Shown here: positions 9,453 to 52,870 of the stretch, piece after piece
Layout: each line of letters opens with the position of its first letter
How positions within the stretch are numbered: position 1 is the stretch's first letter
Assembly (NCBI GenBank): GCA_017961685.1
Contig: JAGCWW010000063.1
Span: 1 to 64,000, forward strand
Direction: 5' to 3'
Source of the DNA: Acholeplasmatales bacterium
GTDB taxonomy: Bacteria; Bacillota_I; Bacilli_A; Acholeplasmatales; JAEDCM01
DNA length: 64,000 nt
The notes under the pieces: generated by a model
Told to the model about the DNA's origin: nothing
The model's database searches: none
Seen by the model: the letters and a program-made list of their open reading frames with translations, nothing else
Translations under genes and position numbers: made by a program

Positions 9453-9509
9453 CATAATAGATATTTCTTCGATATCATTGTATAATAAATATGATTGGAG
9501 GTGTTTTTA

Positions 9510-26067: not shown

Positions 26068-26079
26068 GGCCTTTTTTTT
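26052..26079. terminator. bidirectional terminator
   Basis: AAAAAAGGCC-AACTA-AGGCCTTTTTTT between two convergent genes; A and T tracts on both sides serve both strands. Confidence 0.9.
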
Positions 26080-27529
26080 ATTCTCCAGAAACTTCAATTA
26101 TTTCTCCTTCAAAGCCAGCACTCCAATTACTTGAACAGTAAGGAGAATCTAGTGTAGATTCATAAATTTTAACACTTTCTGCAGTACTCTTATTTAAAAT
26201 TGAACTACCTACTTCTTCTACAGATTCAGGTATAATTAATTGTTTGAATGCTGCCCTATCAAAAGCATTTTTGCCAATTGTTAATACAGTTTGAGGAATT
26301 ACAAAGATATAATCTTCACCAAATTCAATTCCCTTAAATGCTTCATCATTTATTTCTTCTAATTCTGGTAATACTAAACTATTAAATTTAGAACCATAGA
26401 AAGCATCAAATAGAATTGTTGTTACACTTGATGGAATGACAAATTCATCTATACCAGTAAAATCTAGATTACTAAATGCATAAGCACCTATTATTTCAAC
26501 AGTACTTGGAATTGTAGAATTTGCAAATCCTTTAACTACTGAATTATTAGCTATATCAATTAAACAGTTATTTTCAACCTTAAAGAATTGACTAACACCA
26601 CTAATAGATATACTAGTTAAGCTATTCATTCTTTCTTGATATCCAAATGATTCTAATGATCTAGGTAATACTAAAGTAGAAATAGCTGTATCAGCAAAGG
26701 CATTACTATCAATAATTTCTAAGCCTTCATTAAGTGTTACTTCAGTTAAATTAGTATTTCCTGAAAATGAATTAATTAGAATATATTCAAGTGTTGAAGG
26801 ACATCTCAACTTCTTAATATTACAGTTTTGGAAGGCATTACTCTTAATATACATTAAGCCTTCATTAAATGCTACTGTTTCTAGGCTTGTACAATCCTTA
26901 AATGCCGCATCAGAAATAGTTGCGCAATTCTTTGGTAAAACTACTTCTTTTAAATTTGTTATACCAGATAAGAATTTAGCTGGAATTATTTCATATTCTT
27001 CACCAATATAAATCTTTTCTATAGATGTATTATTTAATACATTTACACTTGATGGATCTTTTCCAATAGTAAGCTTATGGAATCCATTAATTCCATCATC
27101 ATAGTATTTAGGAATTCTAACTTCCTTACTAGTTCCTTGATAACCTCTAATAATATATTCTGGTTCTCTTTCATCTAATGAATATTCATAAGATACATAT
27201 TCAATATAAAATCCTTCAGATAATTGTTCATATCCACAATCTACACACTTATCATGTTCAAATGTATGAGATGTAAATGGTAGTTCTTCTATTTCATATT
27301 CACCACATGCACATGCTCTTTTTTTATAGCCATGTTCATTACATGTAGATGATTGAATTATCTTCCATTCACCGAATTCATGTGTATGACTACTACCTTT
27401 GGTAGTCACTGTATTTGTGCCACCCTTTTTTGTTGTTTTTTCGCTTTTTTTCTTATTGCACCCTACAAGTAGTGGTAAACTAAGCAAAATCGTTAAAAAG
27501 ACCGTTTTTAAAACCTTTGGATGCTTCAT
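26078..27529 (-). CDS. BspA-type leucine-rich-repeat lipoprotein
   Basis: 483 aa. Signal peptide with lipobox LVGC followed by NKKKSEKTTKK, so lipid-anchored on the surface. Residues ~45-100 form a Cys/His-rich module (HTHEFGEWKIIQSSTCNEHG, ACACGEYE, KCVDCGYE) resembling the small zinc-ribbon-like repeats common in gut-bacterial surface proteins. The rest is TpLRR/BspA repeats (LRR_5) with cores such as I-x-x-x-A-F-x-x-C-x-x-L. Such proteins bind host or neighbouring-cell surfaces in other species; no ligand can be read here. First of three tandem paralogue-like genes. Confidence 0.88.
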   Translation of the reverse strand: MKHPKVLKTVFLTILLSLPLLVGCNKKKSEKTTKKGGTNTVTTKGSSHTHEFGEWKIIQSSTCNEHGYKKRACACGEYEIEELPFTSHTFEHDKCVDCGYEQLSEGFYIEYVSYEYSLDEREPEYIIRGYQGTSKEVRIPKYYDDGINGFHKLTIGKDPSSVNVLNNTSIEKIYIGEEYEIIPAKFLSGITNLKEVVLPKNCATISDAAFKDCTSLETVAFNEGLMYIKSNAFQNCNIKKLRCPSTLEYILINSFSGNTNLTEVTLNEGLEIIDSNAFADTAISTLVLPRSLESFGYQERMNSLTSISISGVSQFFKVENNCLIDIANNSVVKGFANSTIPSTVEIIGAYAFSNLDFTGIDEFVIPSSVTTILFDAFYGSKFNSLVLPELEEINDEAFKGIEFGEDYIFVIPQTVLTIGKNAFDRAAFKQLIIPESVEEVGSSILNKSTAESVKIYESTLDSPYCSSNWSAGFEGEIIEVSGE

Positions 27530-27551
27530 AAAATCACCCCTATAAATAAAT

Positions 27552-29219
27552 TTATGCTATTTCAATTTTACCTTGATTATAATATGTTTCTAATCCTGTA
27601 TTTTTACATCTTGTCATTAAATCATCTAATGATTGTTGGTTTGCACCATACTTAATAGTTTCAGCCTTAGAGCAGCCATAGAATGCTGATCTACCGATGT
27701 ATAAATTTTCAGTTCCAGGAATAGATATAAATTTTACTTTTAAACAATTATAGAAGGCTTCTTCGGCTATTGTTTTAACCTTTGTATCTTTTAAATCAAT
27801 AGTTTCTAAATTACTACAATCATAGAAGGCACTTTCACCAATTTCTTCTAGTGCTGGTAAGTCTTTTAATTCAACTAAAGCACTACAACCTAGGAAAGCC
27901 TTAAAGCCTATTTTCTTAACACCTTCACTTGCATTTTCAAATGTAGTGATTGATTCTAATTTATCACAGTTCATAAATGTATAATCTTCAATTTCATGAA
28001 TATATGAAGCTGAAATATCTACAGTTTCAAGATTTCTTGCGTTTGCGAATGCATATGCATTAATCTTACTAGTTGATGCGCTTGATGTGAAGTCTTTATC
28101 AGTCTTTTTAGCTGCATAAACTAATAGAGTTCCTTTATTAATTGTATATAAAATATTCTTATCAGCAATATAGCTTGTATTTCCTTCTTTAACAGTGATT
28201 GTTGCTAAATTTTTACACATTACTAATGCATCATCACTAATATAATTAGTGTTTTCTGGAATTTCAATTGATGCAATACTTGAATTGAAGAATGCTTTAC
28301 TTTCAATTCTAGTAGCATTTGATAGCTTTACTTGAAGCATTCCAAGACATAATTCAAAGCAAGATTCAGGAATAACATCAACATTTGTTTTTGATAAATC
28401 AACCTTATCTAATTTAGAACAATAATAGAAGGCTTTATTACCAATTGTAGTTAGTGTTGTTGGCATATTAACTGTAAGCAATGTTCTACAGTTATAAAAT
28501 GCTCCTTCACCCATTTCTTCTAGCTTTGTTTTAGATAAATTAATAAATGTTATTTTTTTATTTTCCGCAAAAGCGTAATTACCAATTGTTTTTAAATCAT
28601 TAGAAAAAGTTACTTTTAATAAGTTTTCTTGACTATAAAAGGCATAATCAGATATTTCTTCTACTTTTGTATTTGAAAAATCAAATTCTGTTAAGCTAGT
28701 ACATCCGTTAAACACATATGAACCAATTTTCTTACATATATTAGGTAGGATTACTTCACTTAATTTAGTACATCCAGCAAAAGTATAATCAGATATTTCT
28801 TCTATTTCATATTTTGATAAATCAAATTCTTCAAAGCCAGTACAATTTTTAAAGGCGGCACTATCAATTTTAGTTAAAGTTGTAGGTAAGTTAATATCTG
28901 TTAAATTACTACAATTTTCAAAAGCGTTAGCGCCTATTTCTTCTAGTTTTGATTTAGACATATCAACATTTTTTATTCTTGTAACTTTATTAAAGGCATT
29001 ATCTCCTATTTTAGTTACTAGCTTTTTATCTATTGAATAAGGAATAATAATATCTGTTTGACTCTTATATTTTTCATTTAAGCCAGTGATAGTTACCTTA
29101 TCATCTTCTACTTCAAAATTATAAATTGTGTTTTTGCTTGAAGCATAAACATCTTTATTTTTACCGCATCCAAAAAGAAATAGCGGAGTTAGAAATAAAG
29201 GTATTAATAATTTTCTCAT
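27552..29219 (-). CDS. BspA-type leucine-rich-repeat lipoprotein
   Basis: 555 aa. Lipobox LFGC after a hydrophobic start (LIPLFLTPLFLFGC), then GKNKD. From about residue 45 to the end it is a continuous solenoid of TpLRR repeats (IGDNAF, AFENCSNLTDINLPTTLTKI, FAGCTKLSEVILP). Alternate repeats carry DLSKT/FSNTKVEEI, a subfamily motif not seen in its neighbour. Surface-exposed adhesin-like role by family. It starts 89 nt downstream of the terminator after the 1505-aa paralogue. Confidence 0.9.
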   Translation of the reverse strand: MRKLLIPLFLTPLFLFGCGKNKDVYASSKNTIYNFEVEDDKVTITGLNEKYKSQTDIIIPYSIDKKLVTKIGDNAFNKVTRIKNVDMSKSKLEEIGANAFENCSNLTDINLPTTLTKIDSAAFKNCTGFEEFDLSKYEIEEISDYTFAGCTKLSEVILPNICKKIGSYVFNGCTSLTEFDFSNTKVEEISDYAFYSQENLLKVTFSNDLKTIGNYAFAENKKITFINLSKTKLEEMGEGAFYNCRTLLTVNMPTTLTTIGNKAFYYCSKLDKVDLSKTNVDVIPESCFELCLGMLQVKLSNATRIESKAFFNSSIASIEIPENTNYISDDALVMCKNLATITVKEGNTSYIADKNILYTINKGTLLVYAAKKTDKDFTSSASTSKINAYAFANARNLETVDISASYIHEIEDYTFMNCDKLESITTFENASEGVKKIGFKAFLGCSALVELKDLPALEEIGESAFYDCSNLETIDLKDTKVKTIAEEAFYNCLKVKFISIPGTENLYIGRSAFYGCSKAETIKYGANQQSLDDLMTRCKNTGLETYYNQGKIEIA

Positions 29220-29273
29220 AATATCACCCTCTTTTTTATTTTAACATATTTTTCTTAAAATTAATATATTAAG

Positions 29274-29299
29274 AAAAAAGAGCCAGCTTAGCTGACTCT
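29274..29299 (-). terminator. terminator of the 1505-aa LRR gene
   Basis: Minus-strand AGAGTCAGCTAAGCTGGCTCT hairpin followed by TTTTTTCTT. Confidence 0.85.
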
Positions 29300-29307
29300 T
29301 AATTTAA

Positions 29308-32300
29308 TTATTCAGTAATATTATTTGCATGTAAGCCAAATACATAGTTCTTTAGGTAAACAGCAGTTTTTCCTGATGGAACCTTAAATGTTACATTAGT
29401 ATAGCTTGCACAGAATTTTTCATCAACACTTGGTGGTAGCTCGCCCAAGAATGTTAATGTTTGAGCACCTTGAGCATTGAATACATTTACACCAATACGG
29501 CTTACGTTTGCTTCAACTGTAAATGCTGTTAATGAACTACATCCAGCGAATGTATCATCATTAATTACGTTACAGCTTTTACTCCAAGTAACTGAATTTA
29601 GTGCGCTACAGCCCTTGAATGCTTCTTTTCCAACATATGTAACAGAAACAGGGATGTCAGCTGTTTGTAGATGTGTACATCCGTTAAACGCTCCATCCAT
29701 AATTTGTTCAACAGCTGTTTGACTTAAGAATGATAAGCTTGTAATTGCTGTATTGTTAAATGCTGAAGCACCAATAGTCTTAATACCTGGGTTAACATAT
29801 ACTTCTGCTAATTGTGTACAGTTTTCGAAGAATGAAGCACTTATTGCTGTGATATTTAATGCTGTTAAAGTAGCTTTTGTAATTGTTGTTTCTGCAAAAG
29901 CGTTAGCTCCAAGTTGAATAACTTTAGCACCTAATGTTAGAGTCTTAATACCTGCCTTATAGAATGCTTTTTCACCAATTGTTACATTATTATCAACACC
30001 AAGTACTACATCAACATATAGTGCAGCATCTTCTTCAAATGCTTCAGCTCCAATTGCTAACATATTTTTAAAATCAAATGTCTCTAGAGCAGTACATCCT
30101 CTAAATGCAGCTATACCAATTGTATTAACTGATGTTCTAATTTCTGGAGTTACAGTTGTATCAGCCATTACTAGAGTTTCTAATGCTTCGCATGCATCAA
30201 ACATGTAATCACCAATCTTAGTAATCTTTAAGTATTTGAAATCAACAGATTTAACTGCTGATTTAGTGAATACTGAATTACCAATTTCAACAATCTTTGA
30301 TCCTAAAACTAATCCAGTTAAACCACTATTTTCGAATGCTCCATCCATAATAGTTAAGCTTACACCATTAGTTGTATCAACGCCTAGGTTAACTGTTTGA
30401 CCAACGAATGAATGAGGTTCTTCATCTTCAGAAGCAAATGCTGATGCTCCAATATAAGAAATAGATGCTGGAATTTGTGTTAAGCATGGAGTATTGAAGA
30501 ATGCTTCATCTTCAATTATCTTAGCATTTGTATTCCAATATATTGTTGTTAAGCTCTTGCAATTCTTAAATGCATAAGCAGGAATTTCAAATACTTTTTC
30601 AGGAATTACTAAATTATTTAGTGACTTAGCGCCTTCAAATGAATGTTCTCCGATTGAATCTAAGCCTTCTGGTAATTCTATTTCAAATAAACATTCACAG
30701 TTATAGAATGCTGATTCATTAATTTGTTTAACAGTCGCAGGTAAGTTAATTGTTGTTAATGCATAGCAGTTATAGAATGTTTGTGCATTAACTACTTCAA
30801 TCTTAGAACCTTGTAAGTATTCAACTGTTCTAAGTGCGAAGCAACCTTTGAATGCTCCATCATTAATCTTAATAACATCTTTTGGAATTAGAATTTCATA
30901 TAAGTTTGAGCTTCCTTCAAATGCGCTAACACCAATTTCAGTTAGTTTTGATAATGCTGTAATATTAACTGCTTTTAATGTCTTAATATCTTTAAATGCT
31001 TCTTTACCAATATATGTAACGCTATCTGGAATAGTTACAGTTACTAAGATAGTACTCATAAATGTTCCGTCTGGGATACTTGTAATATTCTTTGAATCAT
31101 CTTCTGCATTAAATTCAAAGACACATTGAGCTAGAGATTGACATCCAGCAAATACTTGAGTTCCAAGTTTTAAACCATTAGCAGGAAGAGTGATTGTTGT
31201 TAAACCTGATTCAGCGAATGCTCTACTTCCGATTTCTTCTAGAGAATCTAGAGCAGATGGGAAGGCAACTAAACTTGAACATCCATCAAATACGCCATCA
31301 CCAAGTTTTGTAATTAAACTACCATTTTCAAATGTTACACTACTAATAGCAGTGAATCCCTTGAACATGTTATCTGCTAATTCAGTTGATCCATCTTTAA
31401 TTGTTATTTGAGATAGAACTGGTTTTAATTCTGTTACAGAATCGCCAAATAATCTTTCAAGACTTGTTGTACCAAAAATCTTTAATTCTTCTACTTTAGT
31501 ACATCCTGATAGAATAGCGAATCCTAAATTATCTGTTGCAACTAAATCTTTTTCAAATTCGAATGATGTAATAGCTTTACATCCAGCGAAAGCATATTCA
31601 CCAATTCTATTTAAGTTTTCAGTTGTTTTATTTATACTTACTAATAAGCATCCATTAAATGCTCTTTCACCAATTTCAACAACACTTTCAGGTAATTCGC
31701 TAACTGTTAAGTTTAAGCATCCTGAGAATGCATAATCGCCAATACTTGTGATTGAATCAATTAATGTTAAGTTGATATTTGAACATCCACTAAATGCTTC
31801 ATTACCAATCTTAGTTGTTCCTGCATTTAATGTGAATGTACCCATTGCTGAATCGTTTAAGAATAGTCCATCACTAATCTTTGTAATACCAGATGGTAAG
31901 TGGTCCATAACTAATTTTTCACAATCAGAGAATGCATATTCACCAATCTTAGTTAAGCTTTCTGGTAATAATAATTCTGTAATACCTTTACATCCAGCAA
32001 ATGCATAAGCACCAATTTCTTCTACTGTATCAGGAATTGTGATTTGAGTTACAAGTAAACATCCATTGAAGGCATCAGCTTCAATAACTGTTGTTCCTTC
32101 TTTGATTTCAATTGTCTTGATTTGCTTTGAAGTATATTCTTGCGAATCACCGAATAATGTAGCTAAACCATATTTACCATTTACAGAAATTGATTCAACG
32201 TTTGTATCTCCTTCAAATACGAATGATTCTACTACTGTTGAGCTAGATAAATCAATTGTTTTAATGTTTGTACAGTTAATGAAAGCACATTGTCTAATTT

Positions 32301-33825
32301 GTGAATTCTTAGCTGTAACTGTTACTGATTCAATTCCTAGACATCCATCAAATGCATATTCACCGATATATGATAAGTTTTCTGAGAATGTAGGAGTTGT
32401 AATTGCTGTATTTCTAAATGCATAAGCACCAATTTCTTTTACATTTACTAATTCTACATTTACCTTAACGCATCCATCAAATGCACCTTGACGAATGATT
32501 ACTACTGAATCAGGTAATACAACAGTATCTAAATTAATACAGTTTTTAAATACGTTTCTAGATAATTCTTTTAAACCTTCGTTTAATTGAATTTGTTCTA
32601 TCTTAGTACATTCTTCAAATGCACTTTCACCCATTGCTTTAACTGTATTATCGATTGTTAAGTTTTCTAGGTTACTACAATTCTTAAATGCATTTGCAGC
32701 AATCTTATCTCCAGTTATATGAAGTGTTGTTAGAGATTTTCTAACTAGTGGAGCATAATCTGTAAATACTTTTTGAACTGATAAGTTACCATTAATTGTT
32801 AAAGATGTAATCTTTTCAAGTGGAATTAAGTTATCTCCAACTAATTCATATTGAGAGAATGCGTTAACTCCAATGAATGTATCAGATCCAGATTTAATTT
32901 CAATTGATGAAATACCTGAGTTAACAAATGCTTCATCGCCAATTGTTGTTACTTTTTCTGGAATAACGATTGATGTCATCTTTTGTGTATTGTAGAATGC
33001 CTTATTTCCAATTGTTTGTAGGGCATCATCAAATGTTACGCTTGTCATATTTATACATCCTCTAAATGCGTTAGCATCAATTGTCTTTAACGCTTTGTTA
33101 GGTGTAAAGTTTAATGATGTAATCTTTTCGCATCCTGAGAACGCATATTGATCTATTGTTGTAAGGCTTGTAGCATTTGATAAGTTAAGGTTAGCTAAGT
33201 TAACACACTTTTCAAATGCACTTTGAGAAATTACTTCTACGCTACTTGGAATAGCGATAGTTGTTAAGCCTTCACAATCATAGAATGAGAAAGGTCCAAT
33301 TGTTGTTAAGTTTGATTCGTCTTCAAAAGTCACACTTGTTAATGTATCAACATTTTGGAATGCTTCATAAGATATTGATCTAACACTTGCAGGAATTTCA
33401 ATTGAACTAATCTTTGTTCCTAAGAAAGCTTTAGATGGAATACTTACTAATGAAGATGTTCCTGTAAATTCTACTTCTTCAAGATTTATGCACTCCATAA
33501 AACCATTACCATTTAAGTAAGTTAATGTTTCTGGAATGACAACCTTCTTTAAGTTTTCAGAAGTATATGTACAAGAAATTCTTCTAACTACATTTCCATC
33601 AATAGTTGAAGGAATGTTAAAAGTTTCTCCCTGTTCATCTATTCTTGTGATTTCAGCTTCACCATTAAATACTTTATATTCGACCTTTAAAGTCTTATCG
33701 TATTTAGTGTTACCGTCATCCTTCTTTTGTGTAGTTTGTTTCTTCTTGCCACAACCAGCAAAAACAAAAGCAGTTGATGCTAATGCTAGGATGGATAGAG
33801 TTTTTACCAAATTAGTTTTTTTCAT
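29308..33825 (-). CDS. giant BspA-type leucine-rich-repeat lipoprotein (1505 aa)
   Basis: Signal peptide with lipobox FAGC followed by GKKKQTTQKK. After a short spacer the chain is a long run of 23-25-residue TpLRR/LRR_5 units (AF.GC..LT.I.LP..V..IG..AF), on the order of 45-55 repeats. A few insertions carry a distinct motif (SLERLFGDS, GLATLFGDS) that recurs at two or three places. The C-terminus ends with a short non-repeat cap. One of the longest proteins in the window and probably a surface fibre or adhesin. AGGAGGT supports ATG 33825. The upstream 100 nt contain a minus-strand TATAGT -10 candidate and a CGTATA-CA-TATACG inverted repeat. Confidence 0.92.
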   Translation of the reverse strand: MKKTNLVKTLSILALASTAFVFAGCGKKKQTTQKKDDGNTKYDKTLKVEYKVFNGEAEITRIDEQGETFNIPSTIDGNVVRRISCTYTSENLKKVVIPETLTYLNGNGFMECINLEEVEFTGTSSLVSIPSKAFLGTKISSIEIPASVRSISYEAFQNVDTLTSVTFEDESNLTTIGPFSFYDCEGLTTIAIPSSVEVISQSAFEKCVNLANLNLSNATSLTTIDQYAFSGCEKITSLNFTPNKALKTIDANAFRGCINMTSVTFDDALQTIGNKAFYNTQKMTSIVIPEKVTTIGDEAFVNSGISSIEIKSGSDTFIGVNAFSQYELVGDNLIPLEKITSLTINGNLSVQKVFTDYAPLVRKSLTTLHITGDKIAANAFKNCSNLENLTIDNTVKAMGESAFEECTKIEQIQLNEGLKELSRNVFKNCINLDTVVLPDSVVIIRQGAFDGCVKVNVELVNVKEIGAYAFRNTAITTPTFSENLSYIGEYAFDGCLGIESVTVTAKNSQIRQCAFINCTNIKTIDLSSSTVVESFVFEGDTNVESISVNGKYGLATLFGDSQEYTSKQIKTIEIKEGTTVIEADAFNGCLLVTQITIPDTVEEIGAYAFAGCKGITELLLPESLTKIGEYAFSDCEKLVMDHLPSGITKISDGLFLNDSAMGTFTLNAGTTKIGNEAFSGCSNINLTLIDSITSIGDYAFSGCLNLTVSELPESVVEIGERAFNGCLLVSINKTTENLNRIGEYAFAGCKAITSFEFEKDLVATDNLGFAILSGCTKVEELKIFGTTSLERLFGDSVTELKPVLSQITIKDGSTELADNMFKGFTAISSVTFENGSLITKLGDGVFDGCSSLVAFPSALDSLEEIGSRAFAESGLTTITLPANGLKLGTQVFAGCQSLAQCVFEFNAEDDSKNITSIPDGTFMSTILVTVTIPDSVTYIGKEAFKDIKTLKAVNITALSKLTEIGVSAFEGSSNLYEILIPKDVIKINDGAFKGCFALRTVEYLQGSKIEVVNAQTFYNCYALTTINLPATVKQINESAFYNCECLFEIELPEGLDSIGEHSFEGAKSLNNLVIPEKVFEIPAYAFKNCKSLTTIYWNTNAKIIEDEAFFNTPCLTQIPASISYIGASAFASEDEEPHSFVGQTVNLGVDTTNGVSLTIMDGAFENSGLTGLVLGSKIVEIGNSVFTKSAVKSVDFKYLKITKIGDYMFDACEALETLVMADTTVTPEIRTSVNTIGIAAFRGCTALETFDFKNMLAIGAEAFEEDAALYVDVVLGVDNNVTIGEKAFYKAGIKTLTLGAKVIQLGANAFAETTITKATLTALNITAISASFFENCTQLAEVYVNPGIKTIGASAFNNTAITSLSFLSQTAVEQIMDGAFNGCTHLQTADIPVSVTYVGKEAFKGCSALNSVTWSKSCNVINDDTFAGCSSLTAFTVEANVSRIGVNVFNAQGAQTLTFLGELPPSVDEKFCASYTNVTFKVPSGKTAVYLKNYVFGLHANNITE

Positions 33826-34020: not shown

Positions 34021-35616
34021 TTAATTTTCATTATTTTCTAATTGATTATCATCAATTAAATCTTTTTTTCTTCTCTTTTTGATTAGTCTATATATTTCAT
34101 ATATGATAACACATAATATGAATGCACACAAATAACCTAAAAAGTCTAAAATTACATCCTTAAAATTGCCATCTCTACCTGGAGCAAATAGCTGAATTAC
34201 TTCTGTTAAAATGGCAAATGTTAATCCATTTACTAGTATTACAACGTATGTTAAATTAAACTTTTTATAATATGCAGATACCCACATAATATACATCATA
34301 AAGGCAATAATTCCAAAGCCTACAAAGCCCATAAAATGTGCTATACCTTTTCTAATAAACATACCAAAATTAAAGTCAACATTATCTTCTATTACTCTAT
34401 CGCTTACCTCTAAATTGAAGTATGCCTCGAATCTATCAATACCATCATCTACGATAACTCCAACAAGTGTCTTTCCTTCTTTTTTAGGAGTAATAACACC
34501 TTGTTTATCAATACTAGCTATTTTCTCATTATCTATATAATATTCATAATTAAAATATGTCGCAGCATCGCTATTTATTGGTTGAACATTAATTTTATAG
34601 CTTTCGCCTATTACTAATCTCTTATCACTTATAGAATATTTAGGTAAAATGTTTCTTATAGCAACATACATTATATCATAATAACTCCAGTCATATGAAT
34701 AAACATATACTTTATAATTTCCAGCTTTACTAGCTTTTTCTACTTCTCCTGTTGTAATATTTAAGATGAAATCAGTAGTTGGTTTATCATTAGCTGTATA
34801 TGCACTATAGAAACGATCTTGATAAATATTTGATGCATCACTATTAATAGTTGATGAATAACTTAAACCTTCAATACTATTAACTGTTATACTATTAGGC
34901 CCATCAATCTCAAATGTAGTTGGTTTAACAATAGTACCTTCAGTAATAGTTAGTGTTAAAGTTGCGGTTTTACCTGTTGCTGGGTGTGTTCCTTTAATAG
35001 TTACTTCTCCTTCTTTTAACGCAAATAAATGCGATCCATAAGTACCTGCAATATCAGGGTTTAAAGATTCTATATAGAAATCTTTATCAGTAACATTACT
35101 TGGACTAAACGTACCATAAATTAAAGTAACTTCACCTACAGGTAGGCTTGTTATATAGTCATGAGCAACTAAATTAAATGTATCTGGTTCAATTTCTTCA
35201 TGTTTAACTACATTAAATTCTATTTCTTTAGTTAAATCTGATTCCTTTTGTTCAATAATAACTTTAGCTACACCTTCTGATATAAATGTAACATTTCCAA
35301 AATCATCAACTGTTAAAATATCAGTATTAGTTGATGAATATGTTAAAGACTTATAAGATGAATTAGAAGGAGTAATTGATAAATCTAAGGTAATATAATC
35401 ATCTATAAAATAAGATTCTTCTATTTTATTATTAATGGTTATATCGCTAGCTTTAATCACTTTATTTCTAATAAATATTTTAGATATATTATTTATTATG
35501 TTTTTAAAGAATTTATTTTGCTTAGCACTAACATTTGAAGGCAAGGCTGCTTCATAAATTAAAAGTAGCGCAATAAAGATATAAAATGCTAATAAAAATA
35601 TTTTAAACTTCTTCAT
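34021..35616 (-). CDS. VanZ-like membrane protein with inserted Ig-like (Big_2) domains
   Basis: 531 aa. The first membrane helix (5-25) is followed by EAALPSNVSAKQ, matching the VanZ pattern of a Ser/Lys-Gln loop after TM1. Next comes a ~350-residue extracytoplasmic insert with bacterial Ig-like repeats: LTYSSTNTDILTVDDFGNVT, GVAKVII, and IASIDKQGVITPKKEGKTLVGV. Then follow three more helices (~410-510) containing KGIAHFMGFVGFG, EVIQLFAPGRDGNFKDVILDFLGY (the VanZ E..Q...pgR..D...N..G signature), and a Lys/Arg-rich tail. The Ig block therefore sits inside the VanZ domain. VanZ relates to teicoplanin resistance in enterococci, but most homologues are of unknown role. Confidence 0.85.
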   Translation of the reverse strand: MKKFKIFLLAFYIFIALLLIYEAALPSNVSAKQNKFFKNIINNISKIFIRNKVIKASDITINNKIEESYFIDDYITLDLSITPSNSSYKSLTYSSTNTDILTVDDFGNVTFISEGVAKVIIEQKESDLTKEIEFNVVKHEEIEPDTFNLVAHDYITSLPVGEVTLIYGTFSPSNVTDKDFYIESLNPDIAGTYGSHLFALKEGEVTIKGTHPATGKTATLTLTITEGTIVKPTTFEIDGPNSITVNSIEGLSYSSTINSDASNIYQDRFYSAYTANDKPTTDFILNITTGEVEKASKAGNYKVYVYSYDWSYYDIMYVAIRNILPKYSISDKRLVIGESYKINVQPINSDAATYFNYEYYIDNEKIASIDKQGVITPKKEGKTLVGVIVDDGIDRFEAYFNLEVSDRVIEDNVDFNFGMFIRKGIAHFMGFVGFGIIAFMMYIMWVSAYYKKFNLTYVVILVNGLTFAILTEVIQLFAPGRDGNFKDVILDFLGYLCAFILCVIIYEIYRLIKKRRKKDLIDDNQLENNEN

Positions 35617-35638: not shown

Positions 35639-35663
35639 AAAAAAAGCAACTACAAGAGTTGCT
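35639..35663 (-). terminator. terminator after the dnaK-like gene
   Basis: Minus-strand AGCAACTCTTGTAGTTGCT hairpin followed by seven T. Confidence 0.9.
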
Positions 35664-35678
35664 TTTTCAAATTTAATT

Positions 35679-37397
35679 TTATAATCCTTGACGTAATGCT
35701 TGAAGAGCTCTGAATAATAGAATTCTGTATTCTTCAGCTGTCTTGATGTATTCTTTTTGATTATCTAATCTAAATAGAATCCATTCAGTGATTGGGTTTT
35801 GATTTTCTTGTAACTTAGCTCTAATTTCTTGTTCAGGCTTTTGAAGTTTCTCTGGTGGTAAATTCTTGAAGAATTCATTTGCAGCCTTAGTTAATTCTTC
35901 AAAGTTAGTCTTTTGAACTGAAGAACCTTTACCAATTTGCATTGTATCATAGAATTCTGCACCATCTTCATGAACTTCTTTTGCAGTTACTTCAATCTTA
36001 CCAGAGTTATCAACTCTTAAAGTTACATCTACTGGAACTTTATCAGTTGTATCATGGAAGTTTTGTAATTCAATCTTACCTAAAATTTGGTTTTCAGGAG
36101 ATTCAACATTTAAATCCTTACCTTGAACAACATATGCTGTAACTGACTTTTGTCCTTTACCTGCTGTATAGAATCTTTCAACTACTTCATAAGGAATAGG
36201 TGTGTTTTCAAGCATCATGTATTGTACGAATCCACCTGCAACAGTAATTCCTAGTGGGTTAGTTAAAATTTCGTTTAAGAATGATTCTTTCTTATTACCC
36301 ATGATTGAAGCTTGGATAGCTGCACCACGAGCAACAATTAAGTCTGGATCACTATCAGAAATTTCTACGTTAGGGAAAGCATTTCTAATCATTTGTCCAA
36401 CTAGTGGAATTCTTGTAGAACCACCAACTAGGATAATTCTTTGAATTTCTCTACCACCAACAACCTTCTTAGCCATTTCAACTGTTTGGTTAACAAGTGA
36501 TCCGATCATATTTTCAAATTGAGTCTTAGATAATTGATATTCAAGAATAATTCTTTGTCCTTGAATACGAATCATATCTGTACCCTTAACTTCTTCTTGT
36601 TTAGATAAAGCAATTTTAATCTTTTCAGAAATACCATAACTTCTCTTAATGAATTCTTTCTTGAAGTCTGCATTTCCTTCATATTTTCTACCTTCATCAG
36701 TTGAAACATATGAATTGTATAAGTATTCTGAAATCTTTTCATCAAAGTTCTTACCACCGATAACTGAACCATCAGTTCTTACTGCTTGATAGAATCTAAC
36801 ACCATCAACGTTTTCACATTCTAGTAAAGTAGCATCGAATGTTCCACCACCAAGGTCAAATGCTAATACGTTAGTAGCATCTTCAACATCTTCACCATAA
36901 GCAAGAGTTGCACTTGTTGGTTCGTTGATTAAACGAATTTCATGTGTAGGATTGAATCCTGCATCTCTAGCAGCTTGTTCTGTAGAACGTCTTTCGTTAT
37001 CTTTGAAATAAGCTGGAACTGTGATAACTAAATCTTCAACTTCATTTTCAGGATATAATTCATCAAGTCCATCTTTAATATATTTTAAAACTTTTGATGA
37101 GAATTGTTGTGGATTTAATTTAACACCATTATATTCTTCTGTATAAGTGTCACCTTTATCCATATGTATTTTCATGTGCTTCCAAGCATCCATGTATAAA
37201 TCGGCATTGTTCTTTACTTTTTCACCTACTAGGAATTTATCTGCTGATTTATCATAGTAAACTACTGATGGATAAATACCAGACATACTTCCATGTAAGT
37301 ATTGTAGAACTGGTTGATTTGTTACATCGGAATAGATATAGCACTCTGAGTTTGTTGTACCTAAGTCAATACCTACTGTTAATTTAATATTACTCAT
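35679..37397 (-). CDS. DnaK-like Hsp70 chaperone, divergent paralogue
   Basis: 572 aa, shorter than housekeeping DnaK (~610-640). The nucleotide-binding domain is complete: GIDLGTTNSECYIY, INEPTSATLAYG, DLGGGTFDATLL, ILVGGSTRIPLVGQ. The beta substrate-binding domain is present (NPLGITVAGGFVQYMML, TAYVVQGKDLNV), but the helical lid is short and unlike DnaK, and there is no EEVD-like or acidic tail. The N-terminus VLQYLHGSMSGIYPSVVYYD is also unusual. It follows the GrpE-like and J-protein genes, from which it is separated by its own promoter. It is probably the ATPase of a dedicated chaperone system rather than general DnaK (inference). No CIRCE element was seen. Confidence 0.93.
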   Translation of the reverse strand: MSNIKLTVGIDLGTTNSECYIYSDVTNQPVLQYLHGSMSGIYPSVVYYDKSADKFLVGEKVKNNADLYMDAWKHMKIHMDKGDTYTEEYNGVKLNPQQFSSKVLKYIKDGLDELYPENEVEDLVITVPAYFKDNERRSTEQAARDAGFNPTHEIRLINEPTSATLAYGEDVEDATNVLAFDLGGGTFDATLLECENVDGVRFYQAVRTDGSVIGGKNFDEKISEYLYNSYVSTDEGRKYEGNADFKKEFIKRSYGISEKIKIALSKQEEVKGTDMIRIQGQRIILEYQLSKTQFENMIGSLVNQTVEMAKKVVGGREIQRIILVGGSTRIPLVGQMIRNAFPNVEISDSDPDLIVARGAAIQASIMGNKKESFLNEILTNPLGITVAGGFVQYMMLENTPIPYEVVERFYTAGKGQKSVTAYVVQGKDLNVESPENQILGKIELQNFHDTTDKVPVDVTLRVDNSGKIEVTAKEVHEDGAEFYDTMQIGKGSSVQKTNFEELTKAANEFFKNLPPEKLQKPEQEIRAKLQENQNPITEWILFRLDNQKEYIKTAEEYRILLFRALQALRQGL

Positions 37398-37493
37398 TGT
37401 AATTCCTCCCTTAATCGGTTAATTTCGATTTTCTTAAAAAGTTTTTTCTATCGTATTATTAACAAATTTTGAATATATACTTATCATAATACC

Positions 37494-37522
37494 ATTTTAC
37501 CACATATTTCCAATATATTCAA
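37494..37522 (-). promoter_or_regulatory. predicted promoter of the dnaK-like gene
   Basis: TTGAAT (37522-37517), 17-nt spacer, TAAAAT (37499-37494) on the minus strand. It gives a ~90-nt leader with a small AATCG/CGATT hairpin just before the SD. Confidence 0.6.
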
Positions 37523-37562
37523 TATTAGAAATAGCAAGAAATATAGTAATTCTTATATTTTT

Positions 37563-39230
37563 TTACCTATTACTTCTCTTTTTCTTTTGACCATCTTGAG
37601 GTATATCTTGTAGTGGGTCATTTCCTAAATCAAAAATAGGTGGATTGTAGATATCGTCAGGATTATTTCCTCTTAAACGATCTTTACGAGCTTTTTCTTC
37701 TCTTTCCTTTTCTTGTCTAGCACGTGCCATTTCTTCCCATGCACTCTTTACTGACTCAGCCTTTTTATCTTCTTTCTTCTTACCAAATCCAAATAAACCT
37801 CTACGTTCCTTTTCAGGTTCTTTCTTAGCCTCTTGAACAGGAGCTGGTGCTTCTTCAACAGGAGCCTCTTCAACAGGAGCTTCTTCAACAGCTTCTTCTT
37901 CAACTGGTTCTGGTTCTTTTGGTTGTTCGTTCTTTCTTTGTAACATTTCAGCTTGTCTCTTAGCTTCTTCAGCAGCTCTAGCCTTTTCAGCTAATTGAGC
38001 TTCTGTAGCTTGGCTTTCAGCTTCAAGCTCAGCAAGTAATCTAGCTTCTTCCTCTTCAGCTTGTCTTGCAGCCTCTTCAGCAGCCTTTCTAGCTTCTTCA
38101 GCTCTTAGTCTAGCAGCTTCTCTAATTTCGGCTAGTTTACGTTGTTTTTCAGCAATTTCAGCTTCCTTAGCAAGACGTTCTTGTTCAAGACGTTCTCTTT
38201 CAGCAGCAGCTTCTTGTTCAAGACGTTCAGCTTCTGCTTTAGCCTCAGCAATACGACGTTCTTCTTCTTCACGTCTCTTTCTTTCTTCTTCTTCACGAGC
38301 TAATCTTTCAGCTTCAAGTCTAGCAAGTTCAGCTTGACGTTTTTCTTCTGCAATTCTCTCTTCTTCAGCGATTCTTGCTTCTTCTTTAGCAACTGCTTCT
38401 TCAGCAATTCTTTCTAATTCGATCTTCTTATCTTCAGCTTCAGCAGCTTCTTGATATAATCTATCAGCCTCACGTCTAGCTTCATCAGCCTTACGCATAG
38501 CTTCAACCTTAGCTTCTTCAGCTCTATGAGCTTTTTCGCTTAATTTTCTAGCAACTTTTCTAGCCTCAGCAGCTTCGTCAACTTCTTTTAAGTTGTACTT
38601 GTTTTCACCAGTATCATTCATCATTTGTAGCATTTGTTCACCAAGTGCTGAATCCTCAGATACTGATCCACCATCTTCACGGTTACCAAGTACTTCATTT
38701 AAAGCCTTCATTGCAGCTTTAGCCTTTTCTTGGTTAGATAGACCTTCTACGTCTAATGCTTCATCATACTTATAAGTAATAACTTGAGGTTGTACTAGAA
38801 TTACTCTAGTAATTTTGTTTCTAAAACCAACTCTATCAATATGTACAACCTTCTTATCAAGGTTTCTATCGCCTGTAGGAATAACGTCAGTTACTTCCAT
38901 TTCATCGATATCATAGTTTTCTAATACGTTTGGAACCATAACTTCAATGTTTTGTAATTGAAGTGTAGTTTTAAATTTAGATAATGTGTATGACATTTGT
39001 CTACTATCTGACATGTCATCCTTAAAATCAACATAACCAGCATCAACTCTTGTGAAAATTTCAGCTAAAGACTTCATAAATTCCCCTAGAGATTTGTCTG
39101 TTTGCTTCTTTAATTTGTCTTCTGATCTCTTTAATTCATTTTTAACTTCTTGAATTTCCGCATTTAATCTTTTAATATATATATCTTTTGTACGCATCAA
39201 TTCTTGTAATTTCTCAACTGAATCTGCCAT
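37563..39230 (-). CDS. GrpE-like domain fused to a long Ala/Glu/Arg-rich coiled coil
   Basis: 555 aa. Residues ~1-45 form a coiled coil. Residues ~45-160 resemble GrpE: FMKSLAEIFTRVDAGYVDF, FKTTLQLQNIEVMVPNVLENYD, VIPTGDRNLDKKVVHIDRVGF and ITRVILVQPQVITYKY match the GrpE pattern of a four-helix part followed by the small beta domain (G..V..V...GY...drvlRpA.V.V). Residues ~210-450 are an almost uninterrupted charged helix (EAARLRAEEARKAAEEAA-type). It ends with an acidic Pro/Glu/Ala repeat (VEEAPVEEAPVEEAPAP) and a basic tail. GrpE is the nucleotide-exchange factor of Hsp70, and the DnaK-like gene follows. It starts 6 nt after the J-protein stop with its SD inside that gene. Confidence 0.75.
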   Translation of the reverse strand: MADSVEKLQELMRTKDIYIKRLNAEIQEVKNELKRSEDKLKKQTDKSLGEFMKSLAEIFTRVDAGYVDFKDDMSDSRQMSYTLSKFKTTLQLQNIEVMVPNVLENYDIDEMEVTDVIPTGDRNLDKKVVHIDRVGFRNKITRVILVQPQVITYKYDEALDVEGLSNQEKAKAAMKALNEVLGNREDGGSVSEDSALGEQMLQMMNDTGENKYNLKEVDEAAEARKVARKLSEKAHRAEEAKVEAMRKADEARREADRLYQEAAEAEDKKIELERIAEEAVAKEEARIAEEERIAEEKRQAELARLEAERLAREEEERKRREEEERRIAEAKAEAERLEQEAAAERERLEQERLAKEAEIAEKQRKLAEIREAARLRAEEARKAAEEAARQAEEEEARLLAELEAESQATEAQLAEKARAAEEAKRQAEMLQRKNEQPKEPEPVEEEAVEEAPVEEAPVEEAPAPVQEAKKEPEKERRGLFGFGKKKEDKKAESVKSAWEEMARARQEKEREEKARKDRLRGNNPDDIYNPPIFDLGNDPLQDIPQDGQKKKRSNR

Positions 39231-39236
39231 AATTTA

Positions 39237-41924
39237 TTATGCCTCCTTCTCTAGCAATAGTTTAGCATATGCATCATTGATTAATGCAACCTTAGATGAG
39301 TCCCCACCTCTATCTCTATGGTGAGCAAGGATTTGACGTTTGTAAGCTTTCTTGATTTCAGCAATAGTAGCTTGTCTAGAAACACCAAGTAACTTGTAGT
39401 AAATATCGTTTTCATCATGTGATGATGCGAATACTCTATCTTCTTCAGCTAATAGACGATAAGCGTATCTATTAGGTGTTTCTTCATATAATTGTTCAAG
39501 TGTCTTAATATAATTTTTCTTTAAAGTAGTAACATACTCTACTAATTTATCTGTTCTTTCAACACCTTCTTTAGTAACTAAAGATAGGATGTTTTGACAA
39601 GAATAAACACCAATCATTGCACGTTCAATGTATACCATGTTAGTACTTAACATTAAGTCGTTTTGTTGATATTCAGTCTTGTATAATGATGTAACATAAC
39701 TTGAGTTATTAGCAGCAATATAGTTCTTTAATTGAACATAAATTGTGTCAATTCTCTTAGTATTTAATTCTTCAATAGCGTTAACTAAATCATTTTCTAA
39801 AATGTCAATGATTCGTTTATCATAATATGCAGCATATTTTCTTAAAACACCAATATATCTAATTGCTTTTTCAGTGTTTTCTCTATTCTTAACCAATCCT
39901 AAAATCTTTTCATATTTACTAGCGATAACTCTTAAATCATATTGCTTAGCAAATTTGTTTGGACCTTCTTCTTCATAAACTTGACTGAATTCTAATGCTT
40001 CATCAGCGTTAGACTTACACATATCGATAACGTCAGGGTTAGAAGAGTTTTTAGCCATATACTCCCAATAATCTGCTTGAGCATTAAGGATTTTAGACAT
40101 GATTTGTTGATCTAGGTTAGCCTTAATTTGATATTCATGGAACTTAATTTGATATTCTTGTTGAAGGATTGTATCCTTAGATAGCTTATCAAAAATTTCT
40201 TTGCTTGTTCTATATGCAACATCAAGTGGTGTTTCACCATCTGAGTTAACATCTAATGCTTTATCTTCAAGTCTCTTATAGAAATAATCGAAGCACTTAA
40301 TTGCGTTATTTCTAGCACAAATATGTAATACATTATTCTTCTTACTATCTACACCATCAAATTTGTAGCCTCTAACAGCACTCTTCATTACTTGGTCGAT
40401 ATCATCATTAGCAATGTATACGCTGTATAGGTAGATTGGGTAAGTATGTAATCTCTTTTTGATTTCATCAATTTGCAATTGAACATTAAGTTCAGAAATG
40501 AATGATCTAACATCAATCTTTTCATCGATATAAGATTGTACTCTACGAGGTACTGTATCGATATTAAGATTTTCTTTTTCAAATACTTCTTGTTTGATAA
40601 CTTCTTTTGAAGATTCAACAACTTTATTGTAGTCATCAGCTTGTTGACGTAGTCTCTTTAACATTTGGAAAATTCTTGTAATCTTAACGTTGATTTCATC
40701 AATATCACAAGTGTTAAGTAAAGTTTCGAAGAAATCTACTTCAGCAACTGTATCACTCTTACGTAAAATATTTACACGCTCATCAAGTCTTGACAATACT
40801 AAATTAACTCTATCAATATTTTCCTTAATTCTTCTTTCGTATTCTTCCTTCTTATACTTTAGGTCGTTTACAGAATCAAGGTATTCGTTCTTAGTTGTAA
40901 ATACAAGAGGAACCTTTGTATCTAAAGTCATATCAATGTCTAGGTTATTAGCAACTTCTTGCATTTTACTACCAACTGAGTTTTGATAATCTTCATAAGC
41001 CTTAATTGATTGTTCTTGAACTTTCTTTGTTACATCATCATACTTTTTATAAAGGTCAACGAATATTCCTTTATCAGCATATAATCTTTCACCTTCAAAG
41101 TCATTAGTTGATGCTGTATCTTTTAATCTAGATAAAATTTCTAAGTTGTTGTATAAAGATTGATCTTCTTCGTATAAGTATAAAAGTTTTGCTTGATACT
41201 TTTTGTTAATCTTATCAAGTTCGTTGTATAATTTTTCAAGTTCTGGATAGTTATTAACGATATCATCAATTTTTAATTCGTCAGTTTGTTGTAATTGACC
41301 TAGTTCATAATCCTTATAGTTTTCAAGAATTGATTGCAATGTTCTAGATACATAACCTTCATAACTTGAATAAGTATAATTCATAGCCTTTGTGAATTCT
41401 TTATACTTGATGTCATAAACACTTAATTCTCTTGTTTCAAAGAATTCATCATATAGAACCTTCGCAAAACCAAATTGACCACTTTGGTTAGATGGTTCAG
41501 GAAGTGTGAACTTAGCTTGTAATTGATCTAAGCAACGCTTGTATTCATTTAAGGAATCACCAACGCTCTTAGTATAGCCGTAAAGTTCTTCACTAAGCTC
41601 AAATTTTTTGTATGCACCTTTACATGATAGCACACCAAAAGTAGAGATTAATGATAAAACTCCCAATATAAATGCAATAGCTAATACCGCAATAGCAAGT
41701 GCAAATACTGGTTTAAGTAGGATAACACCAATTAACCCGAAAGCAACTGTGATTATCCAGTAGCATAATAACGATACATTGTAGCGCTTCATGTTCTTGT
41801 TGTAATGCCAAGGACTAAATGCTCCAGTATTGTTCGCAAAATGCTCAGGACCATAATATGCATCTTGGTTCGCAGACTTAGACTTTAATGCAAACATTGG
41901 GAATAAAATAAATAATTTTGCCAC
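39237..41924 (-). CDS. membrane-anchored J-domain protein with ankyrin-like repeats
   Basis: 895 aa from GTG 41924, preferred because GAGG lies 8 nt upstream; ATG 41930 or GTG 41933 would sit on the SD. A short hydrophobic start is followed by two membrane helices (~48-105). Residues ~110-500 are coiled-coil-rich. Two ankyrin-like repeats are at ~515-575 (NNVLHICARNNAIKCFDYF, DGETPLDVAYRT), then helical repeats, and a J domain is at the C-terminus (~838-895; YYKLLGVSRQATIAEIKKAY). The J signature HPD reads H869-R-D871. J domains stimulate Hsp70 ATPase through HPD, so either the partner DnaK-like protein has adapted or stimulation is lost. First gene of the chaperone cluster; the soluble part should face the cytosol. 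Confidence 0.88.
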   Translation of the reverse strand: MAKLFILFPMFALKSKSANQDAYYGPEHFANNTGAFSPWHYNKNMKRYNVSLLCYWIITVAFGLIGVILLKPVFALAIAVLAIAFILGVLSLISTFGVLSCKGAYKKFELSEELYGYTKSVGDSLNEYKRCLDQLQAKFTLPEPSNQSGQFGFAKVLYDEFFETRELSVYDIKYKEFTKAMNYTYSSYEGYVSRTLQSILENYKDYELGQLQQTDELKIDDIVNNYPELEKLYNELDKINKKYQAKLLYLYEEDQSLYNNLEILSRLKDTASTNDFEGERLYADKGIFVDLYKKYDDVTKKVQEQSIKAYEDYQNSVGSKMQEVANNLDIDMTLDTKVPLVFTTKNEYLDSVNDLKYKKEEYERRIKENIDRVNLVLSRLDERVNILRKSDTVAEVDFFETLLNTCDIDEINVKITRIFQMLKRLRQQADDYNKVVESSKEVIKQEVFEKENLNIDTVPRRVQSYIDEKIDVRSFISELNVQLQIDEIKKRLHTYPIYLYSVYIANDDIDQVMKSAVRGYKFDGVDSKKNNVLHICARNNAIKCFDYFYKRLEDKALDVNSDGETPLDVAYRTSKEIFDKLSKDTILQQEYQIKFHEYQIKANLDQQIMSKILNAQADYWEYMAKNSSNPDVIDMCKSNADEALEFSQVYEEEGPNKFAKQYDLRVIASKYEKILGLVKNRENTEKAIRYIGVLRKYAAYYDKRIIDILENDLVNAIEELNTKRIDTIYVQLKNYIAANNSSYVTSLYKTEYQQNDLMLSTNMVYIERAMIGVYSCQNILSLVTKEGVERTDKLVEYVTTLKKNYIKTLEQLYEETPNRYAYRLLAEEDRVFASSHDENDIYYKLLGVSRQATIAEIKKAYKRQILAHHRDRGGDSSKVALINDAYAKLLLEKEA

Positions 41925-42051
41925 ATACATCACCTCAATTTAATATTGTCATTTTGTCTCTAATATATATTGTAGCATTTTTTTTACAAAAATTATACTA
42001 AAAATAAATATTTTTAATAGTAAAATTTAAGTAATATTTTTCCTATATAAT

Positions 42052-42073
42052 AAAAAAGAGCCTTACTAAGCCC
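42052..42073 (-). terminator. weak terminator of the yhbY operon
   Basis: Minus-strand GGGCTTAGTAAGGCTC (stem with G-T pairs) followed by TTTTTTA. Confidence 0.6.
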
Positions 42074-42147
42074 TTTTTAGTTCTTTATTTCTTAAAATAT
42101 TTTTTGTAAAACGCTATCATTTTAAGGCATTTTAGGGGTGTTTTTGG

Positions 42148-43147: not shown

Positions 43148-44374
43148 TTAAAATGCCCAGTTTCCATCCTTAAAAATAATATGTTCTTTATTATCTTTAT
43201 CTATACCAATAATTGATAAATCATTTGATCCTACCATAAAATCAACATGAATCATAGAATCATTAATTCCTTTATTTCTTAATTCTTCCAGACTATATTT
43301 TTCATAGTCTTTAATAACATTAGTGAAGCCATGACCTAAAGCAACATGGCAGCATGCATTTTCATCAAATAAAGTGTTATAGAATAAAAGGTTAGTATTA
43401 TTAATTGGTGAATTAAATGGTACTAAAGCTACCTCTCCAAGATATGCAGCACCTTCATCTTCACTAACCATTTGTTTTAATAATTCTTCATTTTTATCTG
43501 CTTTAACGCTTTCTACTTTACCATCTTTAAAAGTAATACTAAATCCATCAATTACTTCTCCTCTATAGCTTAGAGGTTTTGTAGCAACTAATACACCTTC
43601 ACAACACCCGCGCTTAGGTGATGTAAATATTTCTTCTGATGGAATATTAGGATTAAATACATTCCCCTTAAGTGATGTTTCTTTACCACCTAAAAATTGT
43701 GCATCACTAATTAAACCAACTTTAAAGTTAGTTCCATTACTACTTTTATAAACTAATTCCTTTAAATTTAAACTATTTAGATAGTTACATCTAGTTAGTA
43801 AATCGTTATTATGAATATCCCAATTTTTGATAGGATCTCCTTCATAACTTCTAGAACATTTTAATATACTTTCCCATAAAGCTTCAATAGCTTTTTTCTT
43901 ACTTAAATTAGGGTATACTTTCATAGCCCACTTTTCACCTGGTACCGCTGCAATACACCATTGATATTTGTTTTCCATTTCATCAATAAATGGCTTTATT
44001 ATAGGATACCTTAATGAACTAGCATATGATTCTTTTTCTTGATCAATACCTACTAATCCATCTGGATCTTCACTATCTAAAAATATAATACAAGGTAGCT
44101 TTTTACTTCTCCATTTTATCTTTTCTAACTCAAAATCTTCTACTACACCCATAACCTCTTTATCACGGTATTTGTTATGGATTTTAGATAAAGGTAGATG
44201 GTAAAAATCAACATATACCTTTCTGGCTTTAGCTTTATATAATTCTTCAACTAACATACTAACAAATTCAAGCTGTTCTACTTCAGTTTGAATTAAAACA
44301 TCTTGATTCTTTTTAACATTAACACCACGTCTAGCAATTAATCTAGCGTATGCTTTTAGTTTAGATTTATTCAT
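43148..44374 (-). CDS. M29-family aminopeptidase (AmpS/PepS-like)
   Basis: 408 aa, normal length. The family's metal-binding C-terminal half is recognisable: GEVALVPFNSPINNTNLLFYNTLFDENACCHVALGHG, then MIHVDFMVGSNDLSIIGID. The N-terminal domain begins LKAYARLIARRGVNVKKNQDVLIQ. It removes N-terminal residues from peptides using two metal ions, in the cytosol. It overlaps the MscS gene by 8 nt. Confidence 0.94.
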   Translation of the reverse strand: MNKSKLKAYARLIARRGVNVKKNQDVLIQTEVEQLEFVSMLVEELYKAKARKVYVDFYHLPLSKIHNKYRDKEVMGVVEDFELEKIKWRSKKLPCIIFLDSEDPDGLVGIDQEKESYASSLRYPIIKPFIDEMENKYQWCIAAVPGEKWAMKVYPNLSKKKAIEALWESILKCSRSYEGDPIKNWDIHNNDLLTRCNYLNSLNLKELVYKSSNGTNFKVGLISDAQFLGGKETSLKGNVFNPNIPSEEIFTSPKRGCCEGVLVATKPLSYRGEVIDGFSITFKDGKVESVKADKNEELLKQMVSEDEGAAYLGEVALVPFNSPINNTNLLFYNTLFDENACCHVALGHGFTNVIKDYEKYSLEELRNKGINDSMIHVDFMVGSNDLSIIGIDKDNKEHIIFKDGNWAF

Positions 44375-52846: not shown

Positions 52847-52870
52847 AATAATCACTCCGTTATTATTATA

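Follow-up and report, generated by a model that had tools for sequence, protein, structure and literature searches.

Bacterial specialisation of Hsp70s is mainly represented by HscA and HscC, which have dispensed with GrpE, as well as by DnaK paralogues that share their cochaperones. The HscC system of Escherichia coli, together with DjlB and DjlC, is thought to work on transmembrane proteins (PMC8215388), and a shift of the client range to membrane proteins has been described for MxDnaK2 of Myxococcus xanthus (PMC11019930). Furthermore, a subset of the GAP1-N2 GTPase systems in firmicutes and actinobacteria comprises an Hsp70, a GrpE, and a DnaJ-FNIII protein (PMC7159879). Here, we analyze three genes from a 64,000-nucleotide stretch of DNA of an Acholeplasmatales bacterium (the window), which encode a J-like membrane protein, a GrpE-like protein extended by a long charged tail, and a DnaK-like Hsp70.

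A second Hsp70 set beside the housekeeping machine

The initial annotation placed three adjacent open reading frames on the minus strand, and these were found as described, at 35679-37397 (572 aa), 37563-39230 (555 aa), and 39237-41933 (898 aa); all features of the trio given below are on this strand. The order of transcription is J-like gene, GrpE-like gene, DnaK-like Hsp70 gene, and in the reading of the open reading frames, 6 nt separate the stop of the J-like gene from the ATG of the GrpE-like gene, as had been noted. For the J-like gene, the preferred start is the GTG at 41924, which is preceded by a GAGG ribosome site and yields a protein of 895 aa (39237..41924); residues are numbered here by the longest reading frame of 898 aa. 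A terminator-like hairpin, which is a consensus match only, lies between the J-like gene and the gene preceding it (42053..42078), and a second one, AAAAAGCAAC-TCTTGTA-GTTGCTTTTT, was read by eye, though not called by the scanner, 3' of the Hsp70 gene (35641..35667). With hairpins on both sides, the trio looks like a separate unit. The Hsp70 gene may have its own promoter within the 165-nt gap ahead of it (37398..37562), where promoter-like matches occur at 37483-37522 in a number no higher than shuffles yield over the region. The reported absence of CIRCE from the window was confirmed with up to 3 mismatches allowed, and no match was found in the sister species L017 either, placing the trio outside the CIRCE/HrcA regulon by this test. 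Rfam and tRNA scans found nothing.

An ordinary hrcA-grpE-dnaK-dnaJ cluster was identified on contig 47 of the same genome (GrpE 152.8, DnaK 812, and DnaJ 104.6 bits), with a CIRCE-like site directly upstream of hrcA (3 mismatches; 0.01 expected). A search for such a further, CIRCE-controlled set had been proposed at the outset, with the alternative that the trio is simply the divergent housekeeping set of this organism. Because a separate cluster exists in the genome, the trio constitutes an additional set. Moreover, ordinary dnaK is also present in the sister genomes G001 and G002, and nothing was found in favor of the divergent-housekeeping reading, which is ruled out for the present genome unless contig 47 represents contamination, and to which we assign next to no probability. 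The trio is a real second, membrane-associated Hsp70 module.

Sequence features of the three proteins

The DnaK-like protein (35679..37397) reaches 267.7 bits with the Pfam HSP70 profile, spanning the nucleotide-binding domain (NBD) and SBD-beta, and all ATP-site residues checked (D8, T11, K70, P143, E171, D194, T199, and D201) are kept, which assigns it to the Hsp70 superfamily. It is not recognized as a DnaK orthologue, with values of 274/648 and 267/822 bits for the NCBIfam DnaK equivalog; the identity of its NBD to DnaK is 34-37%, and in a tree with long branches, its placement is not settled. The GrpE-signature loop is retained, whereas HscA and HscC have a deletion there, and this fits a linked GrpE-type exchange factor. 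An identity as HscC was rejected based on the presence of the signature loop and the absence of the L1,2 insertion, and an identity as HscA based on the GrpE signature (290-295), which is not deleted, and the lack of isc genes among the neighbors.

The short lid that had been ascribed to this protein is evident, with ~66 aa beyond SBD-beta compared to ~130 in E. coli DnaK. Furthermore, the interdomain linker, VLLLD in E. coli DnaK, aligns with SFLNE (36270..36284), so that half of the hydrophobic residues are gone, and both members of the clamp pair K414-D326 (E. coli numbering) are replaced (K414E and D326G). D477R and E217Q are changed as well relative to E. coli DnaK; among the cleft salt bridges, R56/E264 is lost and K55/E267 is kept; and the J-contact residues R167, L391, Q378, and P419 are retained. 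In E. coli DnaK, D477 is the partner of J-domain K48, and K414I lifts the basal ATPase activity ~25-fold (PMC8215388). By analogy to such mutants, the lost clamp, the eroded linker, and the shortened lid would be expected to accelerate ATP hydrolysis and client release, suggesting a cycle that is faster and less J-dependent, with clients held more loosely. The codon adaptation of the gene (0.805, compared to 0.817 for the housekeeping dnaK, based on a small reference set including that dnaK) hints at an abundant protein.

Within the J-like protein, a single strongly hydrophobic stretch was found at residues 51-107 (41613..41783; Kyte-Doolittle peak 2.95). It fits a two-helix hairpin, in agreement with the two membrane helices read initially, and membrane anchoring through this protein is well supported by the sequence. 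Such a hairpin would leave both ends of the protein in the cytosol. The ~730 residues following the hydrophobic stretch are mostly helical in a low-confidence AlphaFold2 model (pLDDT 41, from a two-sequence alignment). Of the suggested ankyrin-like repeats, a Pfam Ank_2 match at residues 514-585 (40179..40394) was recovered, but with 24.1 bits it stays under the cut-off of 27.3. The C-terminal J-like domain (residues 843-898; 39240..39407) comprises helices I-III only. The claim of a J domain is borne out by a Pfam DnaJ match over residues 845-892 (35.2 bits, cut-off 27.8) and by a match to a DnaJ J domain from the PDB (E=2.4e-4), next to a weak NCBIfam J-domain match; however, the alignments reveal HRD instead of HPD at residues 872-874 (39312..39320), identically in both species. 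Since the proline of the HPD motif is missing, the protein is named J-like here, following the strict definition. The H and D of the motif as well as YKR of helix II are intact. Replacement of H or D in the HPD motif abolishes stimulation, and in the complex, P34 packs against DnaK P419 and D35 bonds with R167 and Q378 (PMC8215388), while in a simulation of P34A, helix II extends and H33 and D35 become disordered (PMC13012618). Judged by its motif, the J-like domain may stimulate no Hsp70 at all. With the HPD proline missing, the linker eroded, and the clamp residues gone, the notion of a complete, self-contained machine, as put forward in the initial annotation, is not established.

The middle protein (37563..39230) had been read as a GrpE followed by a charged coiled coil. 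The Pfam GrpE profile yields 20.4 bits for the whole 555-aa protein and 24.4 bits for residues 1-214 (over 8-139; 24.6 bits in the sister species), which is below the gathering cut-off of 25.8, and separate pieces of the GrpE-like part that lack the N-terminal helix are no longer reported by Pfam. For calibration, second GrpE matches below the cut-off were followed in a 295-genome sample; the highest scored 22.0 bits, and most were restricted to the coil part. When residues 1-214 were compared with 395 genomes, the sole match beyond the protein itself was a true GrpE from an hrcA-grpE-dnaK locus (E=9e-5 per genome). Furthermore, the coil-free residues 47-160 align with the L019 GrpE at a Smith-Waterman score of 72, compared to a maximum of 62 among 500 shuffled queries, for each of which the best score over 62 GrpEs was taken. 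No signal was obtained when the GrpE-like part was compared by hhalign with 62 Bacilli GrpEs, nor with a GrpE HMM built at the level of the order; phmmer/hmmsearch of this part against the PDB retrieved no GrpE, and the AlphaFold2 model of the N-terminus, from a two-sequence alignment, is unusable (pLDDT 45). While the assignment to GrpE thus falls short of the Pfam cut-off and is blank in hhalign, the alignment beats all 500 shuffles, and the protein is, with good confidence, a divergent GrpE relative, whose GrpE-like part extends over residues 8-160 (38751..39209) and comprises a helix, a bundle, and a region resembling the beta-wing. In another family of the class, the usual GrpE is accompanied by a further clear one (L083, G150:C172:18674-19102, 48 bits).

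Further along the GrpE-like protein, residues 215-430 (37941..38588) consist to 55% of E, K, R, and D, and contain 48 i,i+4 E-K/R pairs compared to 29.3 +/- 4.3 in shuffles. The charged, helical character of the proposed coiled coil is retained, but a hydrophobic heptad seam is lacking except for a weak alanine one. A stiff, salt-bridged single-helix rod of ~30 nm appears at least as likely as a weak coiled coil. The C-terminal tail (residues 476-555; 37566..37805) was delimited by reading, and its end, NPDDIYNPPIFDLGNDPLQDIPQ.GQKKKRSNR, reads as nearly invariant in comparison to the sister species.

Conservation, taxonomic range, and host context

In the sister species (L017, MAG RUI193), the trio occurs in identical order, with frames kept and neighbors nearly unchanged, which bears on the proposed check of neighborhood conservation in related bacteria. 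The orthologues are located at L017:10010-12697 (J-like, 84% identity), L017:12704-14392 (GrpE-like, 89%), and L017:14512-16230 (Hsp70, 95%). Between the two species, dN/dS is 0.135 for the J-like protein and 0.010 for its J domain, 0.051 for residues 1-214 of the GrpE-like protein and 0.206 for its tail, and 0.079 for the Hsp70, with a value of 0.50 for the adjoining Big_2-VanZ gene. All three genes of the trio are under purifying selection and kept for function.

The trio is known in two genomes only. For the J-like protein, no full-length relative was found in 100 related genomes beyond its own genome and that of one congener, no relative among 394 other genomes of the class, and no match in plasmids or viral contigs; genomes from other phyla were covered by a single scan tuned to close relatives. 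For the Hsp70, no orthologue above ~37% identity was found in 61 genomes of the order, the sister species aside. In the third genome of the genus, G001, the contig stops within the gene preceding the trio, so that an absence there cannot be claimed. As far as searched, the trio is confined to one genus. A phage, plasmid, or defence origin was rejected, based on the lack of J-protein matches in plasmids and viral contigs and of a PADLOC match. Another unusual Hsp70 cluster was seen in a different family of the order (L097; G010:C35, 1273-7201), where an 833-aa Hsp70-like protein adjoins an AAA ATPase, accompanied by a 666-aa protein that has no match in Pfam and a J-like reading at its start (NPFYILEVTPYDS).

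Concerning the host, neither Mur ligases (PF08245) nor MreB were found in three members of the genus (G000, G001, and G002; 72-83% complete), compared to 17 Mur-ligase matches in the same-order genome G005. A walled genus would require every Mur-ligase gene to have escaped all three assemblies, so that the absence of a wall is most likely. Losses of peptidoglycan have occurred several times in related Bacilli orders (PMC10868615).

Several further genes in the window deserve mention. Three consecutive lipoprotein-like LRR (BspA-type) genes (26078-33825; 483, 555, and 1505 aa) lie beside a gene for a Big_2-VanZ membrane protein (34021-35616), which has 41% identity to its counterpart in the sister species. 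On the other side of the trio, an M29 aminopeptidase gene (43148-44374) is shared with G001 and missing from the same place in G002/L017. Moreover, 9495-12563 encodes, on the opposite strand, a charged and probably coiled-coil protein of 1022 aa without a Pfam match, and 51314-52855 a protein of 513 aa that combines a Cys-rich N-terminus with a charged helix and MORN repeats.

Possible roles of the module and comparison with known systems

We consider it probable that the trio is a specialised second Hsp70 module, which is recruited to the membrane in a wall-less lineage and has its clients at the envelope, the surface, or a scaffold. The N-terminal hairpin would seat the J-like protein in the membrane, and a largely helical stalk bearing ankyrin-like repeats would, by the predicted topology, hold the J-like domain in the cytosol, where it could recruit or position the short-lid Hsp70 on few clients close to the membrane. 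Nucleotide exchange on the Hsp70 would fall to the GrpE-like protein, with its salt-bridged helical tail possibly acting as a spacer or tether. The Hsp70 itself, with an intact ATP site and altered clamp, linker, and lid, would be expected to hydrolyze ATP and release clients more quickly and to require less stimulation by an HPD motif. Envelope, surface, or scaffold proteins are probably the clients, considering the genomic context without Mur ligase and MreB and with adjoining LRR and Big_2 surface-protein genes.

Other readings assign different tasks to the same parts. It is conceivable, if tentatively so, that the J-like protein does not stimulate at all and, comparable to Pam16, restrains or docks the Hsp70, with the housekeeping DnaJ providing the true J function. 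The fixation of HRD in both species under a dN/dS of 0.01 implies that this motif is retained for function, and the Hsp70 carries K414E, D326G, and D477R, both in line with such a role; however, H, D, and YKR of helix II as well as R167, L391, Q378, and P419 of the Hsp70 are intact, and with these contact residues preserved on either side, the two proteins could just as well form a functional, co-adapted pair. As a sub-case of the preferred specialised membrane module, the trio could assemble a polar membrane structure or a cytoskeletal one in a manner resembling TopJ, which we hold to be somewhat unlikely. The lack of Mur ligase and MreB in three genomes, the membrane J protein, the charged rod of ~30 nm, and an Hsp70 that is abundant by codon use are consistent with it, as is the role of TopJ, a J-domain component of the attachment organelle that P1 delivery requires and that has been connected to gliding (PMC12325244, PMC4669176). 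However, the J protein is missing from wall-less relatives in the class sample, and homology to TopJ beyond the J domain is not claimed. To our knowledge, neither an Hsp70 nor a GrpE is dedicated to TopJ, which also speaks against this sub-case. In its most specific form, a genus-specific membrane Hsp70, paired with a GrpE-rod and a J domain that has co-adapted without HPD, would act as a dedicated morphogenetic motor in the construction or upkeep of a cytoskeletal or surface structure, and this we judge to be quite unlikely.

An unlikely explanation is also that the module acts at the inner face of the membrane to maintain the export competence of large surface proteins (BspA-type LRR lipoproteins, Big_2 proteins, and adhesins). 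The LRR and Big_2-VanZ genes follow immediately downstream (26-35.6 kb), with Big_2-VanZ occupying this position in the sister species as well, and the J protein has a membrane anchor. Moreover, its J motif is followed by GG, which we take to be Pam18-like, and mitochondrial Hsp70 works with Pam18 in import. Nevertheless, a terminator-like hairpin separates the Hsp70 gene from the Big_2-VanZ gene, and the adjacency is perhaps due to chance; Big_2-VanZ evolves fast (41% identity) and the module slowly. Finally, a conflict (defence) system of the GAP1-N2 GTPase type, in which Hsp70, GrpE, and J parts are likewise clustered (PMC7159879), is highly improbable: no GTPase or effector was recognized among the neighboring open reading frames (27.5-50 kb, partly by eye), the J protein has no FNIII domain according to Pfam, PADLOC gave no match, and evolution is slow with conserved synteny.

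Within the preferred reading of a specialised module at the membrane, the Hsp70, the exchange factor, and the membrane J protein appear to have diverged together. The trio is therefore a natural test of how much change in the HPD motif, the interdomain linker, and the K414-D326 clamp is tolerable under selection, and if its clients are indeed envelope or scaffold proteins, it would show how a bacterium without a wall and MreB arranges its own surface.

Each part of the trio has a precedent; the combination was not found described in the literature searched, which comprised open-licence papers only, and this is weak evidence of novelty. HscC with DjlB/DjlC resembles the trio in having a short Hsp70 (550-580 aa) besides DnaK with its own J proteins (PMC8215388). 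Unlike the Hsp70 of the window, to which its NBD is 31.6% identical, HscC has no GrpE signature and no GrpE of its own, and contains the L1,2 insertion. MxDnaK2 is likewise a second Hsp70 and shares an operon with a GrpE of its own, MXAN_6672 (PMC11019930), yet this GrpE is ordinary (34% similarity to E. coli GrpE), and the operon is bicistronic, without a J protein. In the GAP1-N2 systems, as in the trio, an Hsp70, a GrpE, and a J-domain fusion are clustered, but the trio is devoid of the GTPase, effector, FNIII, and TPR components. TopJ of Mycoplasma pneumoniae shares with the J-like protein that it is a specialised J-domain protein of a wall-less host, needed for a polar membrane organelle. 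The two differ in architecture, as TopJ consists of a J domain, an acidic-proline-rich region, and a C-terminal domain, in this order, whereas the J domain ends the protein in the window; furthermore, TopJ has no HRD. In DjlA, the membrane anchor is N-terminal, and the J domain is C-terminal and cytosolic. However, DjlA has an HPD motif and partners with DnaK, whereas the J-like protein adds ankyrin-like and uncharacterised helical regions.
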